A DNA stretch of 32,005 bases from Chloroflexota bacterium (GTDB taxonomy: Bacteria > Chloroflexota > Chloroflexia > Thermobaculales > Thermobaculaceae), in NCBI GenBank assembly GCA_902810765.1, contig CADDYR010000011.1, forward strand, positions 1 through 32,005. The letters run 5' to 3'. Shown here one piece after another: positions 1,938 through 26,200 of the stretch (the first letter of the stretch is position 1; each line of letters opens with the position of its first letter). The notes beneath the pieces were generated by a model that ran no database searches, was not told the DNA's origin, and was given only the letters and a program-made list of their open reading frames with translations. The position numbers and the translations under genes are program-made.

Positions 1938-2255
1938 TTACGCCGCGCAGATCACGGACTCGACCGCGGCCCAGTACGCGTCCTCCGGGTCGCCGTACAC
2001 GGTCTCGCCGCTGTCGAGCCGGGTGCCGTCGGCCATCTCGGCCCCGTCCTCCCCGACCTCTCGAAGGGACCAGAGGTACACCGCCGGGCGCGTCACGCCG
2101 TCGGGCCACCGCTTGCGCACCTCGAGGTCGAACCTGTGCCCCTCGGAGAGGACGCGCACCGTGACGGAGGTGAGCACCGTGCGCTCGCGCATCAGCTTGA
2201 TCGGCTCGAGCGTCATCTCGGCCATGAGCCCGGCGATCCGGTCCGCGCACTCCAT
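1938..2255 (-). CDS. Hypothetical protein, 105 aa, co-directional with gatCA
   Basis: I do not recognise this family. The ATG at 2255 has a very good Shine-Dalgarno (GAGGTGA, 6 nt spacing). The protein has an N-terminal helix, then a beta-rich middle (TVLTSVTVRVLSEGHRFDLEV, KRWPDGVTRPAVYLW), and ends in an acidic segment with an aromatic pair (DAYWAAVESVICAA). No signal peptide or membrane segment is visible. It sits 30 nt after the metallo-beta-lactamase/Rieske gene and 18 nt before gatC, so co-transcription is likely, but spacing alone does not show a role in tRNA amidation. Clean frame and strong ribosome binding site make it a real gene. Confidence 0.7.
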   Translation of the reverse strand: MECADRIAGLMAEMTLEPIKLMRERTVLTSVTVRVLSEGHRFDLEVRKRWPDGVTRPAVYLWSLREVGEDGAEMADGTRLDSGETVYGDPEDAYWAAVESVICAA

Positions 2256-2285: not shown

Positions 2286-3845
2286 CTAGGAGGCACGAGC
2301 GCGGTCGCGCTCGCTCTCCTCCCCTACCGGCACGGAGTACAGCTTCCGGTCGTCCGAGGTCAGGCAGCGACCGGTCGCGAGCTCGAACTGCCATCCGTGG
2401 AGCGAGCAGGTGAGGACGCCGTCCTTCACGGAGCCGAACCGGGTGAGGTCCGCCTTGAGGTGCGGGCACCGGCGCTGCACCAGGTAGCCGTCGCACTCGA
2501 ACAGCTGCTGGTCCTGGGTCTGCTCGGAGTACCAGCCCTCGGCGTACTGGATGCGCTCCTCGGAGAGGCACTTGAAGAAGCTGTACACGTACTCGTTGTA
2601 CGCACCCTTGCGCTCCGCCTCGAACCGGCACGACAGGAACAGCTCGTTCACCCAGTCCTCGACGTGGTGGATTATGCAGTACTCGATCAGCGCGGGGTTC
2701 ACCTTCAGCAGGTACTCCCACTCCTCTCCGCGCCAGGGGTACACCTTCCGCTGCTGGAAGTCGAGGATCACCGACTGCTCCCCGCAGTCTATCAGGACCC
2801 GGCCGTTGATCCCGACCGCGGTCAGGTCCGCCTCCTCGATCAGCGGCTCGAGCCAGTCGCGCAGCTCGGAGACGATGTCCACCTGCCCGCGCGGCCACGA
2901 AGCCTTGATCTCCTCGATCAGCCCCTGCTTCCGCGCCCTGTACTCCTCGAGGTACTCGCGCTTGTGCGTGAATATCCGCCGCACGTCCTCCTCGGGCATC
3001 GGATGATCGAGGTCGAACCGGTCCCTCTCGACGTGCGCCACCGTGCCGGGAACCATGAGGCGGCCGTTGTCCAGCCCGTGCTCCCGCATGTACTCGATGA
3101 ACACCGTCTGGTCGGGGAAGATGTTCAGCGGGTCCCGGTCGAAGTCGTTGAGGTGGAACAGCTCCTCGTCCAGGAAGCACGGCGGTCCGGCCGACGGGAC
3201 GACGTGGGCGGCCCTGACCGCCTGCACGTACCTCAGCGCGCGCGCCATCTGGTTCTCGCGCTTCTTGCGCGCGAGCACCTGCTTCATCTTCTCGGGAAAG
3301 CGGTACACCATCGGGTACCAGATCGCGCCCGAGAACTGCAGGAAATGCGCGTCGAACGGTCCGAAGCCGGCGAGGGTCTCCAGGTCGACCGGCCGCGAGT
3401 CGTTCTGGTCCAGGATACGGGTCTCGCCGTCGTCCACCATCAGGCTCGAGTCGCCGAGAGGGCCGTCCGCCGGAGATACCTGAGCCATGACCATGAACCT
3501 CAGCCCTTCGTGCTCGAGGACCTGCGCGTTCTTCGTCTGGATGAACCGGGTGAAGCCGAGCGAGCGCAGCTCGCGCTCGAGCAGGTCCAGCGGGTAGTCG
3601 GGCAGGATGACGATCGCGTCCTTCGACACGTGCTCCCGCAGGAACTCGGGGTCGTAGTGGTCGTGGTGCAGGTGCGAGAGGTACAGGTACTTCGGGCTGG
3701 CGATCAGGCCGAGGTCGAGGTCCTCGTTGCTCGGGAACGGGAACCACGAGGCGAAGTACGCCGGGTTGAACCACGGATCGGTCAGGACGCTTCCGTGCCT
3801 GGTCTCTATGTAGAGTCCGGCGTGACCTACGAACGTGATCTTCAG
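2286..3845 (-). CDS. Metallo-beta-lactamase-fold/Rieske [2Fe-2S] fusion protein, CMAH-like
   Basis: The N-terminal half is a metallo-beta-lactamase fold: it begins KITFVGHAGLYIET, has LTDPWF, and carries the metal motif HLHHDHYD. The C-terminal ~100 residues are a Rieske domain with both ligand boxes, C-P-H and C-S-L-H-G-W, 16-17 residues apart. The pairing and the DPW motif recall CMP-N-acetylneuraminate hydroxylase (CMAH), but with the Rieske domain at the C-terminus. By analogy it may be an iron-dependent oxygenase or hydrolase; the substrate is unknown. An upstream ATG at 3929 has no ribosome binding site and would add about 28 atypical residues. A CTG at 3845 follows AGGAGG by 8 nt and begins exactly at the family start (M-K-I-T-F), giving 519 residues, so I chose CTG. 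Confidence 0.8.
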   Translation of the reverse strand: MKITFVGHAGLYIETRHGSVLTDPWFNPAYFASWFPFPSNEDLDLGLIASPKYLYLSHLHHDHYDPEFLREHVSKDAIVILPDYPLDLLERELRSLGFTRFIQTKNAQVLEHEGLRFMVMAQVSPADGPLGDSSLMVDDGETRILDQNDSRPVDLETLAGFGPFDAHFLQFSGAIWYPMVYRFPEKMKQVLARKKRENQMARALRYVQAVRAAHVVPSAGPPCFLDEELFHLNDFDRDPLNIFPDQTVFIEYMREHGLDNGRLMVPGTVAHVERDRFDLDHPMPEEDVRRIFTHKREYLEEYRARKQGLIEEIKASWPRGQVDIVSELRDWLEPLIEEADLTAVGINGRVLIDCGEQSVILDFQQRKVYPWRGEEWEYLLKVNPALIEYCIIHHVEDWVNELFLSCRFEAERKGAYNEYVYSFFKCLSEERIQYAEGWYSEQTQDQQLFECDGYLVQRRCPHLKADLTRFGSVKDGVLTCSLHGWQFELATGRCLTSDDRKLYSVPVGEESERDRARAS

Positions 3846-4008
3846 GGCTCTCTCCTCCTGGAAATGCCCCGAGCCGGCGCGGACGCTGAGAGGTTGCGAG
3901 GGTGTGCGCACCACTTCGGCGCAGGGCATGATAGCTGGCCGATGCCCGGCCTTGTCCTGGCCTCAGCCACTTTAGCATACCCGCGGGCGGTTCTCCATCG
4001 GCCTCCAG

Positions 4009-11764: not shown

Positions 11765-14118
<2,354 letters not shown>

Positions 14119-20833: not shown

Positions 20834-20959
20834 CCCGCCCGGCACGGTCCCGCGCGGCCCCCTTGGCAGCGCGTATGCGAAATCAGCGGCGAGCGGTACT
20901 CAGCCGGAGGGCGGCGCGGCACCGGTCCCGCCCGCTGGTGCTTCGAAGGAGTTGAACTC

Positions 20960-22786
20960 ATGCCCCGTACAGTTGCCGATGCGATGGTCGAGCGCCTGAT
21001 CGAGTGGGGAGTTGATACCGTGTTCGGGCTGCCGGGCGACGGGATCAACGGCCTCATGGAGGCTCTGCGCAAGCACCGCGACAAGGTCCGCTACGTGCAC
21101 GTCAGGCACGAGGAGGTGGGAGCGATGGCGGCCGTCGGATACGCCAAGTTCACCGGCAGGCTCGGCGTGTGCTTCTCGACGGCCTCTCCGGGCGCGATCC
21201 ACCTGATGAACGGCATCTACGACGCGCGGCTGGAGCAGGCGCCGATCCTCGCGATCACCGGCATGACCTACCACGACCTGATCGGCACCTTCTACCTGCA
21301 GGACATACACACGGACTACCTGATGCAGGACGCCTGCGTGTACAACGAGCGGATCATGGGGCCGGCGCACCTGGAGAACGTGGTGGACCTCGCCTGCCGC
21401 TACGCGCTCACCCAGCGCGGCCCCGCCCACCTCGCGTTCCCCATTGATTACCAGGCGGCCGAGGCGGAGCCGATGATGCGCTTCAAGCGCAACGTGCCGG
21501 GGCACACGTCCGCGGAGTTCAAGATGCCGCGCCAGCTCCCCGAGGAGGAGGACCTGCGGGCCGCGGCGGACCTGCTCTCCCGCCACTCGAGGATCGCCAT
21601 CCTCGCGGGCGCCGGCGCCCGGGGCGCAGGCGACGAGCTCGAGCAGGTGGCGGAGATACTGGGCGCGCCGATCATAAAGGCGATGCTCGGCAAGGACTGC
21701 GTGCCCGACGACAGCCCGTACGTGACCGGCGGGCTGGGGGTGGTCGGCACACGTCCCTCCCAGGACGCGATGCAGACCTGCGACGCCCTGCTCATCGTCG
21801 GCAGCTCGTTCAACTACATCGAGTTCCTGCCCAAGCCCGGGCAGGCCGAGTGCGTGCAGATAGACGACAAGCCGCAGCGCATCAGCGCCCGCTACCCCGC
21901 GGACGTCGCCCTCGTGGGCGATGCGAGGGCGACGCTGCGCGCGCTCATCCCGCTGCTCGAGCGCAACCGCGACCGCTCGTTCCTCGAGACCGCCCAGCAG
22001 GGGAAGAGGGAGTGGGACGCGCTCATGGAGGAGCGGGGCACCAGCGACGCCGTGCCGATGAGGCCGGAGGTGGTGTCGTGGCACCTGGCGCGGGCGCTCC
22101 GGGACGACGCGATCGTGTGCGGCGACTCGGGGCAGGTCACGACCTGGGTGGCCCGCATGAACCTGCGCCGCGGCCAGATGTTCTCCTTCAGCGGCACGAA
22201 CTGCTCGATGGCCGCCGCGCTGCCCTACTCCATCGGCGCCCAGACGGCGTACCCCGACAGACAGGTCGTAGCGTTCACCGGCGACGGCTCGCTCACGATG
22301 CAGATGGGCGACCTGGCGACGCTCGTGCAGGAGAACCTGCCCGTCAAGGTCGTGGTGTTCAAGAACAACGCCCTCGGCCTCATCAAGTGGGAGCAGATGG
22401 TCTTCCTCGGCAACCCCGAGTACGGCATAGACCTCAGGCCGATAGACTTCGTCACGATAGCGCAGGGCTTCGGCATCCCCGCGGTGCACATCGAGGACCC
22501 GAAGGCGTGCGGCGAGCAGCTGCGCCAGGCTCTCGCGATGGACGGACCGGTGCTCATCGAGGCGGTCGTAGACGCGAACGAGCCGCCGCTGCCCGCGAAG
22601 ATCACGCGCGAGCAGGCGATGCACCTCGCACAGGCGCTCGCCCGGGGCGAGGAGAACCGCGTGCGCATCGGCCTCACGATCGGCCGCCACCTGCTCGACG
22701 AGCACACCTTCGAGGCCAGCTCCTTCGACGTCGCGGACAGGATCAGGGAGAAGCTCCCCGGCGGCGACGGAGGGGAGCAGGGATAG
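20960..22786 (+). CDS. Thiamine-diphosphate-dependent enzyme, pyruvate oxidase/dehydrogenase-like
   Basis: A 608-residue member of the acetolactate synthase/pyruvate oxidase (PoxB) family. The N-terminal Pyr domain has FGLPGDGINGLMEAL and the cofactor-activating Glu51 in HVRHEEVGAMAAVGYAK. The central domain is nucleotide-binding-like (LAGAGARGAGDELEQV). The PP domain holds the ThDP/Mg motif GDG (441-443) to NN (469-470). It probably decarboxylates pyruvate, with FAD and quinone as electron acceptors if it is PoxB-like; the C-terminal membrane-binding region of PoxB is not obvious. The ATG at 20960 has AAGGAG upstream. Acetolactate synthase is less likely because no small subunit lies nearby. 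A separate terminator was not seen. Confidence 0.85.
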   Translation: MPRTVADAMVERLIEWGVDTVFGLPGDGINGLMEALRKHRDKVRYVHVRHEEVGAMAAVGYAKFTGRLGVCFSTASPGAIHLMNGIYDARLEQAPILAITGMTYHDLIGTFYLQDIHTDYLMQDACVYNERIMGPAHLENVVDLACRYALTQRGPAHLAFPIDYQAAEAEPMMRFKRNVPGHTSAEFKMPRQLPEEEDLRAAADLLSRHSRIAILAGAGARGAGDELEQVAEILGAPIIKAMLGKDCVPDDSPYVTGGLGVVGTRPSQDAMQTCDALLIVGSSFNYIEFLPKPGQAECVQIDDKPQRISARYPADVALVGDARATLRALIPLLERNRDRSFLETAQQGKREWDALMEERGTSDAVPMRPEVVSWHLARALRDDAIVCGDSGQVTTWVARMNLRRGQMFSFSGTNCSMAAALPYSIGAQTAYPDRQVVAFTGDGSLTMQMGDLATLVQENLPVKVVVFKNNALGLIKWEQMVFLGNPEYGIDLRPIDFVTIAQGFGIPAVHIEDPKACGEQLRQALAMDGPVLIEAVVDANEPPLPAKITREQAMHLAQALARGEENRVRIGLTIGRHLLDEHTFEASSFDVADRIREKLPGGDGGEQG

Positions 22787-22896
22787 GGCGAGGAGGATCG
22801 CCACACGGTCACATACCGAGCAATCGAGCGAAGGCGCGGTGAACGGGCGTGTCGTCCGGGACACGAACGGGTGCCTGCCAGCGCCATCCGCTCTGA

Positions 22897-23096
22897 TCGT
22901 CCTGAGCCGCCGACGCCCGTCATCCTGAGCCCTTCGCTTCGCTCGAGAGCCTGCCCTGAGCGGGAGCGAAGGGGTAAACTCCGCGAAGGACCTGGAGGGG
23001 GGATGCCGCGAAGGTCCGGGGAGCGAAAGAAAGAAGGAGAGTCTCTGTCCAGGGCGTTGCAGAGATTCTTCGGCCCTTCGGGCCTCAGAATGACAG
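22897..23096. repeat. Second MITE-like repeat region
   Basis: The gap 22787-23299 (513 bp) contains TCGTCCTGAG at 22897, GTCATCCTGAG at 22919, a 9-bp inverted pair CCCTTCGCT/AGCGAAGGG (22930-22938 and 22965-22973), and a terminal inverted end at 23064-23096 that is the exact reverse complement of 18429-18461. The outer ends face each other as in the first region. Frames through it encode typical repeat-derived peptides and no domain. The rest of the gap (22787-22896 and 23097-23299) shows only a short AT-rich island around 23209-23230, possibly promoter DNA for the next gene. Confidence 0.75.
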
Positions 23097-23299
23097 GCAA
23101 GGGTGGGGCCTCGGGGATATGACACATAGTGGCGGCCCCAAGACGACGCGTGGTGCCAGCGCCAGCGATGACAGGGGTAGAGGCGGCCTCGGAACGACTG
23201 TTGCGAGACGATGAATAACATAAAGATGACAGCCGGGCGAATGCCCGCGGCAGCGGGACGGCTGGTAGAAGCATAGCGGCGAGGCGAGAGGAGATCAGC

Positions 23300-26200
23300 A
23301 TGCTGTTCACGACGAGAAGGCCCGGGCTCGGGGAGCGCACTCGGAGCGACCCGGTTCAGCTCCCCCCGCCCGACGTGGACGTGCCGGCGCTCGGGGCGGA
23401 CCTCGAGCGCGCGGTGAGGGGGGAGGTGCGCTTCGACGGGGGCTCGCGCGCCCTCTACGCCTCCGACCTCTCGATCTACCGCCAGGTGCCGATCGGAGTG
23501 GTGATCCCGAGGGACGCGGACGACGTCGTTGCGGCGGTGGAGGTCTGCCGTCGCCACCGCGCGCCGATACTGCCGCGAGGCTGCGGCTCCAGCCTCGCCG
23601 GTCAGACCTGCAACGTCGCGGTCGTGCTCGACTTCTCGAAGTACATGAACCGGGTGCTCGAGATAGACCCCGAGCGGAAGCTCGCGCGCGTCGAGCCCGG
23701 CTGCGTGAACGACGTGCTGAACGCGGAGGCCGAGAAGCACGGGCTGCGGTTCCCGCCCGATCCCGCCACCCACGCGTGGGCGACCATCGGAGGGGGCATC
23801 GGCAACAACTCCTGCGGCACCCACTCGATCATGCACCCTCCGGGCCGAACCTCCGATCACATCGTCGAGATGGACGTGCTGCTCTACGACGGCACGAGGA
23901 TGACCGTCGGACAGCACTCCGAGGAGGAGGTCGAGCGGATCGTCCGGGAGGGCGGCAGGCGCGGCGAGATCTATCGCGGTCTGCGGGAGCTGCGCGACCG
24001 CAACCTCGACCGCATCCGCACCGAGTTCCCGCCGATCGAGCGGCTCGTCTCGGGCTTCAACCTGTACGCCCTCCTGCCCGAGAACCGCTTCGACGTCGCA
24101 AGGGCGCTCGTGGGCACGGAGGGCACGTGCGCGATAGTGCTCGGCGCCACGCTGAGGCTCGTGGACGACCCCGGCCACCGCGTCACGCTCGTGCTCGGCT
24201 ATCCCGACGTGTTCCACGCCGGGGACCACGTGCCCGAGATCAGGGAGTACCACCCCACCGGGCTGGAGGCGATAGACGCCCGAATCCCCCAGAACCTGCG
24301 GAGGAAGGGGCAGCAGCTCGAGGCGCTGCCGCTGCTGCCCGATGGAGGGGGCTGGCTGTTCGTCGAGTTCCGCGGGGAGTCTCTGGAGGAGTCGCGCCGG
24401 AAGGCTCAGGATCTCCAGCGCGCGCTCGAGAGGTCGGACGACCCGCCGCACACGCGCCTGCTCGAGGACGAGGCCCAGCAGGAGATGGTGTGGTCGGTGC
24501 GCGAGAACGCGATCGGCGCGAGCCGCATTCCGGGCGAGCTGGACACGTGGGCCGCGTGGGAGGACGCGGCCGTGCCGGTCGAGCGCCTCGGGGAGTACCT
24601 GCGCGAGTTCAAGCAGCTCCTCGACCGCCACCACCTGCGCTACGTGCTGTTCGGCCACTTCGGGCAGGCTTGCGTCCACTGCCGCACGGACAACGACCTC
24701 AAGACCGCCGAGGGCATACGCGACTTCCGCAGGTTCATGGAGGAGGCGGCGGACCTCACGGTGAAGTACGGCGGGTCGCTCTCGGGCGAGCACGGCGACG
24801 GCCAGCTGCGGGGTGAGCTCCTCTCGCGGATGTACAGCCCCGAGATGATCCGGGCGTTCGACGAGTTCAAGGCGATCTGGGACCCCGACAACAAGATGAA
24901 CCCGCACAAGACGGTGTCGGATACGTACAGGCTGGACGAGAACCTGCGCTTGGGCACGGGCTACAACCCGCCCGAGGTGAAGACCCACTTCGCGTTCGTT
25001 GACGACCACGGCAGCTTCGCCGCCGCGACCGAGCGCTGCTACGGCTTCGGTAAGTGCCGGAGGCTCGAGGGAGGGGTGATGTGCCCCAGCTTCATGGTGA
25101 CCCGTGAGGAGGCGTACACCACGCGAGGCCGGGCGAGACTCCTCTTCGAGATGCTCCAGGGGGAGGCGGTGACCGAGGGCTGGCGGAGCGACGCCGTGAA
25201 GGACGCGCTCGACCTCTGTCTGGCGTGCAAGGGCTGCAAGGGCGACTGCCCGGTGAACGTGGACGTCGCCACCTACAAGGCGGAGTTCCTGTCCCACTAC
25301 TACGAGGGGAGGCTCAGGCCCCGCGCCGCCTACTCGATGGGGCTGATCATGTGGTGGGCTCGCCTGGCGTCCCTCGATCCGGGGCTCGTGAACGCTCTCG
25401 GGCGCTGGCCCGTGGTCTCCGACCTGGTAAAGGGCGCGGCCGGGGTCAGCCGGAGGCGCGAGCTCCCGGCGTTCGCAGCCCGGACGTTCCGCGAGTGGTT
25501 CGCCCGGCGCGGAGAGCGCAACCGGGGCGGCCCGAGGGTCGTGCTCTGGCCCGACACGTTCACGAACCACTTCGAGCCCGAGATCGCGCGCTCCGCGGTC
25601 GAGGCGCTGGAGGCGCTCGGCTACCACGTAGTGCTCCCGCGACGCCCGGTGTGCTGCGGCAGGCCGCTGTACGACTACGGGATGCTGGACCTTGCCGAGC
25701 GCTTTCTCGTGAACGTGCTCGACGCGCTCGGCGACGACATCCGCGCGGGCACGCCGGTCGTGGGGCTGGAGCCGAGCTGCGTCGCGGTGTTCCGCGACGA
25801 GCTGTGCAACCTACTGCCTCACGACGAGGACGCGTCCCGGCTGCGCAGGCAGACCTACCTGCTCTCCGAGTTCCTGGAGCACGAGGCGGGGGACCGCGAC
25901 CTGCCCCGGATCGGCCGCAGGGCGCTCCTCCACGGCCACTGCCAGCAGAGGGCCGTGCTCAGGTTCGACTCTACGACGAAGCTGCTCGACCGGCTGGGGG
26001 TGGAGTACGAGGTGCCCGCCTCCGGGTGCTGCGGCATGGCGGGGAGCTTCGGGTACGAGGCGGAGAAGTACGAGGTCTCGGCGCGGATCGGCGAGCACGA
26101 ACTCCTCCCGGCCGTGCGGAACGCGCCGAAGAGCGCGGTCGTCGTCGCGGAGGGCTTCTCGTGCCGCTCCCAGATCAGGGGCCTGACGGACCGGCGCGCG

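Follow-up and report, generated by a model that had tools for sequence, protein, structure and literature searches.

The minus strand of the window (the whole stretch of 32,005 nucleotides of Chloroflexota DNA analyzed here) carries a namH-like gene, and judging from its sequence, the product is very probably a NamH-type hydroxylase that makes the N-glycolyl form of UDP-MurNAc or of a soluble precursor further along the Mur pathway. The enzyme is well supported as a typical member of an already known family, and its link to Rv3818 of Mycobacterium tuberculosis runs through the name of a Pfam family, published papers and named relatives. The primary NamH paper is Raymond et al. 2005. What appears modestly new is the presence of such an enzyme in a Chloroflexota host, together with one small companion gene. 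The features concerned are as follows.

2286 to 3845, minus strand: namH-like gene, 519 aa, CTG start, in the order metallo-beta-lactamase (MBL), SCP2-like, Rieske
3853 to 3859, minus strand: probable ribosome-binding site AGGAGGA ahead of the CTG start, from the sequence
3843 to 3845, minus strand: probable CTG start codon, where homologues have GTG, ATG or TTG
2946 to 3845, minus strand: MBL-fold domain, about residues 1-300 (end estimated), from Pfam PF13483 at 2-106 and VIA-align
3657 to 3674, minus strand: HLHHDH metal-binding motif, residues 58-63, with H58, H60, D62 and H63 in 41 of 41 homologues
2523 to 2876, minus strand: SCP2-like domain PF25451 (Rv3818-like), residues 324-441, E 3.7e-49
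2355 to 2483, minus strand: Rieske [2Fe-2S] domain PF00355, residues 455-497, E 1.6e-9, ligands C460, H462, C480 and H483
1938 to 2255, minus strand: orf105, a 105-aa gene 30 bases downstream of namH, a conserved neighbor with no Pfam match

The open frame runs on the minus strand from position 3845 to a stop at 2286 and encodes 519 residues. The original prediction had delimited this frame at 2286-3845, and the frame is real, but the minus strand had been left out. Translation probably does begin at the CTG at 3845, because AGGAGGA lies 7 bases upstream of it and a usual start codon stands at this place in 37 further distinct homologues that align from residue 1: GTG in 21, ATG in 11 and TTG in 5. 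The gene adjoins atp and gat genes, not mur genes.

The Pfam domain search confirmed that the protein is a fusion of MBL and Rieske domains, as had been predicted: residues 2-106 score 25.3 bits for Lactamase_B_3 (PF13483), whose cut-off is 24, and residues 455-497 score 38 bits for the Rieske domain (cut-off 20.3), which has all four cluster ligands. That two-domain picture was incomplete, since it overlooked the middle domain, SCP2_Rv3818 (PF25451), named after Rv3818 of M. tuberculosis and matched with 166.3 bits against a curated cut-off of 28.2. No ligand is missing from the Rieske cluster (C460-x-H462 and C480-xx-H483), nor any residue from the MBL motif H58-x-H60-x-D62-H63. For the alignment of 41 close homologues (window protein included), rows whose match started after query residue 5 or ended before residue 470 were excluded, namely L023, L033, L036, L042 and L045, which are partial at contig ends. 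In this alignment H58, H60, D62, H63, C460 and H462 were kept in all 41 rows, and C480 and H483 in 40, the sole gap being L032, whose frame runs into a contig end; wherever homologue sequence exists, the Rieske ligands are complete. D132, N148, D149 and D226 were also found in 41 of 41 and, with H58, H60, D62 and H63, are kept in two distant relatives, L065 and L066. Altogether 72 positions were conserved in every row. The Rieske ligands and HxHxDH are common to the window protein and all four Mycobacteriales rows.

Rv3818 is described as namH or its homologue, a hydroxylase that turns N-acetylmuramic into N-glycolylmuramic acid (PMC6194230, PMC10050696, PMC3605390), and the NamH layout is given as an N-terminal UlaG (MBL) domain and a C-terminal Rieske domain (PMC10050696). 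An MBL domain at the N-terminus with a Rieske domain at the C-terminus is this published NamH layout, and therefore the "reversed CMAH order" is the known order of NamH and the enzyme is not an undescribed one. Of the earlier proposal of an undescribed oxygenase with unknown substrate, the oxygenase remains probable on sequence grounds, while the rest gives way to the same domains in the same order in NamH (Rv3818).

The relationship extends over nearly the whole length of the protein. Five records from Rhodococcus (2), Nocardia (2) and Tsukamurella (1) showed identities of 47.7-50.3% over 97% of the protein, and comparison by stretch with four Mycobacteriales proteins gave 52-54% in residues 1-300, 38-42% in the SCP2 domain and 55-63% in the Rieske domain. 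All five close homologues scanned by Pfam (L011, L048, L049, L050 and L059) had the MBL-SCP2-Rieske order, the MBL match of L049 being 23.6 bits and thus under the cut-off of 24. HAD-hydrolase and lysophospholipid acyltransferase genes lie just upstream of namH in two of the five Mycobacteriales records, an arrangement which we take to be that of Rv3818 as well. Homologues from Glycomyces were 48-49% identical, and for Stackebrandtia, a relative of Glycomyces, both N-glycolylmuramic acid and a NamH homologue have been reported (PMC6194230). The genes for UDP-MurNAc are present in the host genome (murA, 451.5 bits; murB, 210.6 bits). No match to PF25451 was obtained in 14 control genomes, including Corynebacterium glutamicum, where its absence agrees with what PMC6194230 says of Corynebacterium. 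The same source lists Catenulispora and Rubrobacter as having NamH homologues, without evidence that either makes the modified sugar, and the literature reports of NamH activity that we found concern mycobacterial NamH only.

The host bin is 4.0 Mb in size, with 96% completeness and 4.6% contamination, and gave no match to 16S rRNA. In a relatives sample of 61 genomes, PF25451 was found in 6 of 7 host-family genomes (host included) compared with none of the 54 others; the one family member lacking it, G004, is 78% complete. Across a phylum sample, 36 of 400 genomes matched, 34 of them above the cut-off. Of the 61 genomes in the relatives sample, 15 had the chlorosome protein CsmA (PF02043), which makes Chloroflexota the most likely phylum; 13 of the 15 belong to family f6 and 2, with weaker matches, to f3, and none to the host family.

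In the tree, the 41 close homologues, those of Mycobacteriales and Glycomyces included, were set apart from L065 and L066, the branch between them having a length of 4.21 and support of 100/99. L065 and L066 were the only outside rows of this midpoint-rooted tree, and Rv3818 itself was absent from it. So rooted, the tree placed the actinomycete proteins inside Chloroflexota-type diversity, over forks of only 87/93 and 86/87. A single clade of 10 actinomycete rows, excluding three Thermoleophilia rows and chosen after the first tree was seen, was not rejected (p-AU 0.145), and a meeting of long branches was flagged for the tree with this test. L065 (5759-7345) and L066, from genomes G308 and G159, form a distant sister group at 29% identity; L065 is MBL-SCP2-Rieske by Pfam, and the PF25451 match of L066 falls just below the cut-off. 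These two are possibly hydroxylases of another N-acetyl sugar.

Proteins with 66-68% identity to the window protein are encoded on three contigs named Solirubrobacterales or Thermoleophilaceae (L006, L007 and L014), and in the tree these three grouped with a host-family genome with support of 92/78. A search for WhiB was positive in one of eight genomes, that of Glycomyces, and found none in three host-family genomes or in the genomes from which L006, L007 and L014 come; the Thermoleophilia names of the latter are therefore not confirmed. Their sequences suggest either exchange between phyla or misnamed bins. Literature searches, with most subscription journals outside their coverage, returned among the papers listed no report of NamH or N-glycolylmuramic acid in Chloroflexota, nor of N-glycolylmuramic acid in Thermoleophilia or in Glycomyces.

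A contig labeled Bifidobacterium breve (L008) has a NamH almost identical to that of actinobacterium IMCC26256 (L009), and its label is probably wrong. A namH homologue (L051, NZ_CP129615.1:43733-45286) was found in Nocardia sp. PE-7 on a circular plasmid of 69 kb, so namH can be plasmid-borne. In Microbacterium (NZ_CP072877.1:449461-451011) a homologue at 43% identity matches in three pieces, is annotated as three genes (MBL, hypothetical and Rieske), and is possibly broken.

Among other explanations, the one that survives best is a hydroxylase of NamH fold that has shifted to a different N-acetyl nucleotide sugar as its substrate, such as UDP-GlcNAc or an exopolysaccharide precursor, and we consider it unlikely. 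The deep relatives L065 and L066 are only 29% identical and all three Pfam domains recur in L065, so members of the superfamily may differ in substrate, and the window protein is only about 50% identical to Mycobacteriales proteins. This reading is opposed by the conservation of 107 of the 519 positions in at least 40 of the 41 close homologues, Mycobacteriales and Glycomyces included, and by the UDP-MurNAc synthesis genes in the host genome.

Far less probable is a UlaG/UPF0173-type hydrolase to which a Rieske domain was added as a redox sensor. An AlphaFold2 model of the protein, built from 10 sequences, had a mean pLDDT of 79.6 and a pTM of 0.80, and among the 50 VIA-align matches listed, MBL proteins matched model residues 1 or 2 to 266-322 with Z of 16.5-19.8; the fold comparison of the window protein covers residues 1-310. 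Two oxygenases are among the best matches and speak for the NamH-type hydroxylase, CmlA (Z 19.8, with 232 residues aligned at rmsd 3.1) and FrsH (Z 18.9, with 233 residues aligned at rmsd 3.1), although plain MBL proteins, 3rpc among them (Z 19.8), do equally well, and the presence of MBL hydrolases among the best structural matches (Z 19-20) favors a hydrolase. The top hit of a sequence profile searched against the PDB was FrsH (E 6.2e-7), while NAPE-PLD reached E 0.0074 and CmlA E 0.013, and sequence searches of the PDB returned no full-length relative. The MBL-domain profile and the fold matches to the model thus fit an oxygenase without proving one. The hydrolase is opposed by the histidines of the MBL part, of which only H58, H60 and H63 were found in all 41 homologues; the next best were H281 (40 of 41, absent from L065 and L066) and H167 (37 of 41). 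A classical two-zinc hydrolase site needs further histidines, and with only these three invariant, such further histidines have no invariant counterpart here. A plain MBL hydrolase is disfavored on the same grounds, as further invariant histidines are lacking. A sialic acid hydroxylase akin to CMAH but with its domains permuted, although it would share the class of chemistry and the MBL and Rieske parts, and CMAH is described as a distant homologue of the UDP-N-glycolylmuramic acid genes (PMC6481270), is highly improbable given the reversed order, the match to the NamH family PF25451 and the lack of a NeuB match; domain order and the lack of a NeuB match in the host genome likewise led to the rejection of a CMAH-type enzyme as such. 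Here the original prediction held on both points. The Rieske domain is N-terminal in animal CMAH (PMC8227644) and C-terminal in the window protein by Pfam, and no sialic-acid role is indicated, NeuB, the sole pathway enzyme sought, having no match in the 96% complete host genome in a search that was positive in 9 of 14 controls.

For a NamH-type hydroxylase, we infer the following reaction, electron path and stage in the Mur pathway. An electron donor would reduce the Rieske cluster, from which electrons would pass to an iron bound in the MBL domain at its HxHxDH site. O2 would be split at this metal site and one of its oxygen atoms would go onto the methyl carbon of the N-acetyl group, in either UDP-MurNAc or a UDP-MurNAc-peptide, and the N-glycolyl product would be built into peptidoglycan by later Mur enzymes. 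The SCP2-like domain may help to hold the substrate or to dock the Rieske domain. The least certain step is that the small orf105 product may assist NamH in the host family. Rv3818, the NamH homologue of M. tuberculosis, is reported to interact with MurF alone among the Mur ligases, and the authors proposed the soluble UDP-MurNAc-pentapeptide stage for it (PMC3605390).

orf105 lies beside namH in the window and in seven relatives (L006, L007, L014 and L052-L055). In the relatives sample, an orf105 profile, built from members of the genomes that it finds, picked out 6 of 61 genomes, precisely those that have PF25451. Five of the six have namH and orf105 side by side; in G006 the namH contig ends just past namH and orf105 is on another contig. 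All six genomes belong to one family, so the co-occurrence does not count as six separate events. Across the phylum sample the profile matched at least 4 of 400 genomes, and weak members may have escaped it because no more than 11 initial candidates were scored per listed genome; the four are three host-family genomes and G150, whose match is weak (E 8e-4) and on a different contig from its namH. The 4-6 kb flanks of four Mycobacteriales namH loci gave no match to orf105 in any of the four. When 13 window genes were compared by tblastn (E 1e-4) with the loci of 28 relatives, whose flanks were of unequal length (L056 stops just after namH), namH was found in 28 of 28 and otherwise only orf105, in 7 of 28. 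An operon logic drawn from the atp and gat neighbors was rejected, as among the 13 window genes only orf105 recurs beside the namH of relatives. Clustering of neighbors by reading frames was swamped by antisense frames.

None of the eight orf105 members had a Pfam match. The AlphaFold model of orf105 had a mean pLDDT of 82.2; Foldseek returned nothing under E 0.001 (best 0.32), and the best fold match, with Z 4.9, was the methane monooxygenase inhibitory subunit tied with actin capping proteins, too weak to use. That orf105 is an accessory to NamH is a guess. Elsewhere in the window, a second, single-domain MBL protein (13471-14118, minus strand; Lactamase_B_3, E 1.1e-49) is encoded between recX and the CTP synthase gene. 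A 1575-codon open frame (20900-25627, minus strand) with no Pfam match at E 0.001 adjoins an SMC/RecF-like gene and is overlapped by plus-strand frames, one of 1030 codons.

N-glycolylmuramic acid is known from mycobacteria and some relatives and has been tied to lysozyme and beta-lactam resistance (PMC10050696, PMC6194230), and also to NOD2 sensing. Somewhat short of an even chance, in our view, is the broader proposal that N-glycolylated peptidoglycan is no actinobacterial speciality. Chloroflexota lineages, the host included, would make it with a native NamH diversity at least as deep as the actinobacterial one, and one family would have a dedicated partner, orf105, found beside namH also in three Thermoleophilia-named contigs, as if the pair had crossed phyla. 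If the Chloroflexota NamH works, the modification would be wider than described, and the origin of the enzyme, its electron donor and its partners could be studied in harmless soil bacteria, with orf105 as a concrete candidate partner for a NamH-type enzyme.

Compared with known systems, the window protein resembles NamH (Rv3818) in its N-terminal MBL (UlaG), middle SCP2_Rv3818 and C-terminal Rieske domains with conserved ligands, whereas its gene stands in a Chloroflexota host, beside atp and gat genes and followed by orf105. With CmlA and FrsH, diiron beta-hydroxylases of MBL fold, it shares an MBL domain serving oxygenation, but these have an N-terminal part of their own, the match to the model beginning at residue 251 or 252 of their chains. 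To our knowledge, CmlA and FrsH have no Rieske domain, and their substrates are carrier-bound amino acids. CMAH shares the Rieske and MBL domains and, by inference, the hydroxylation of acetyl to glycolyl, but it has the Rieske domain first and acts on a sialic acid, whereas the host here has no match to a sialic-acid synthase.
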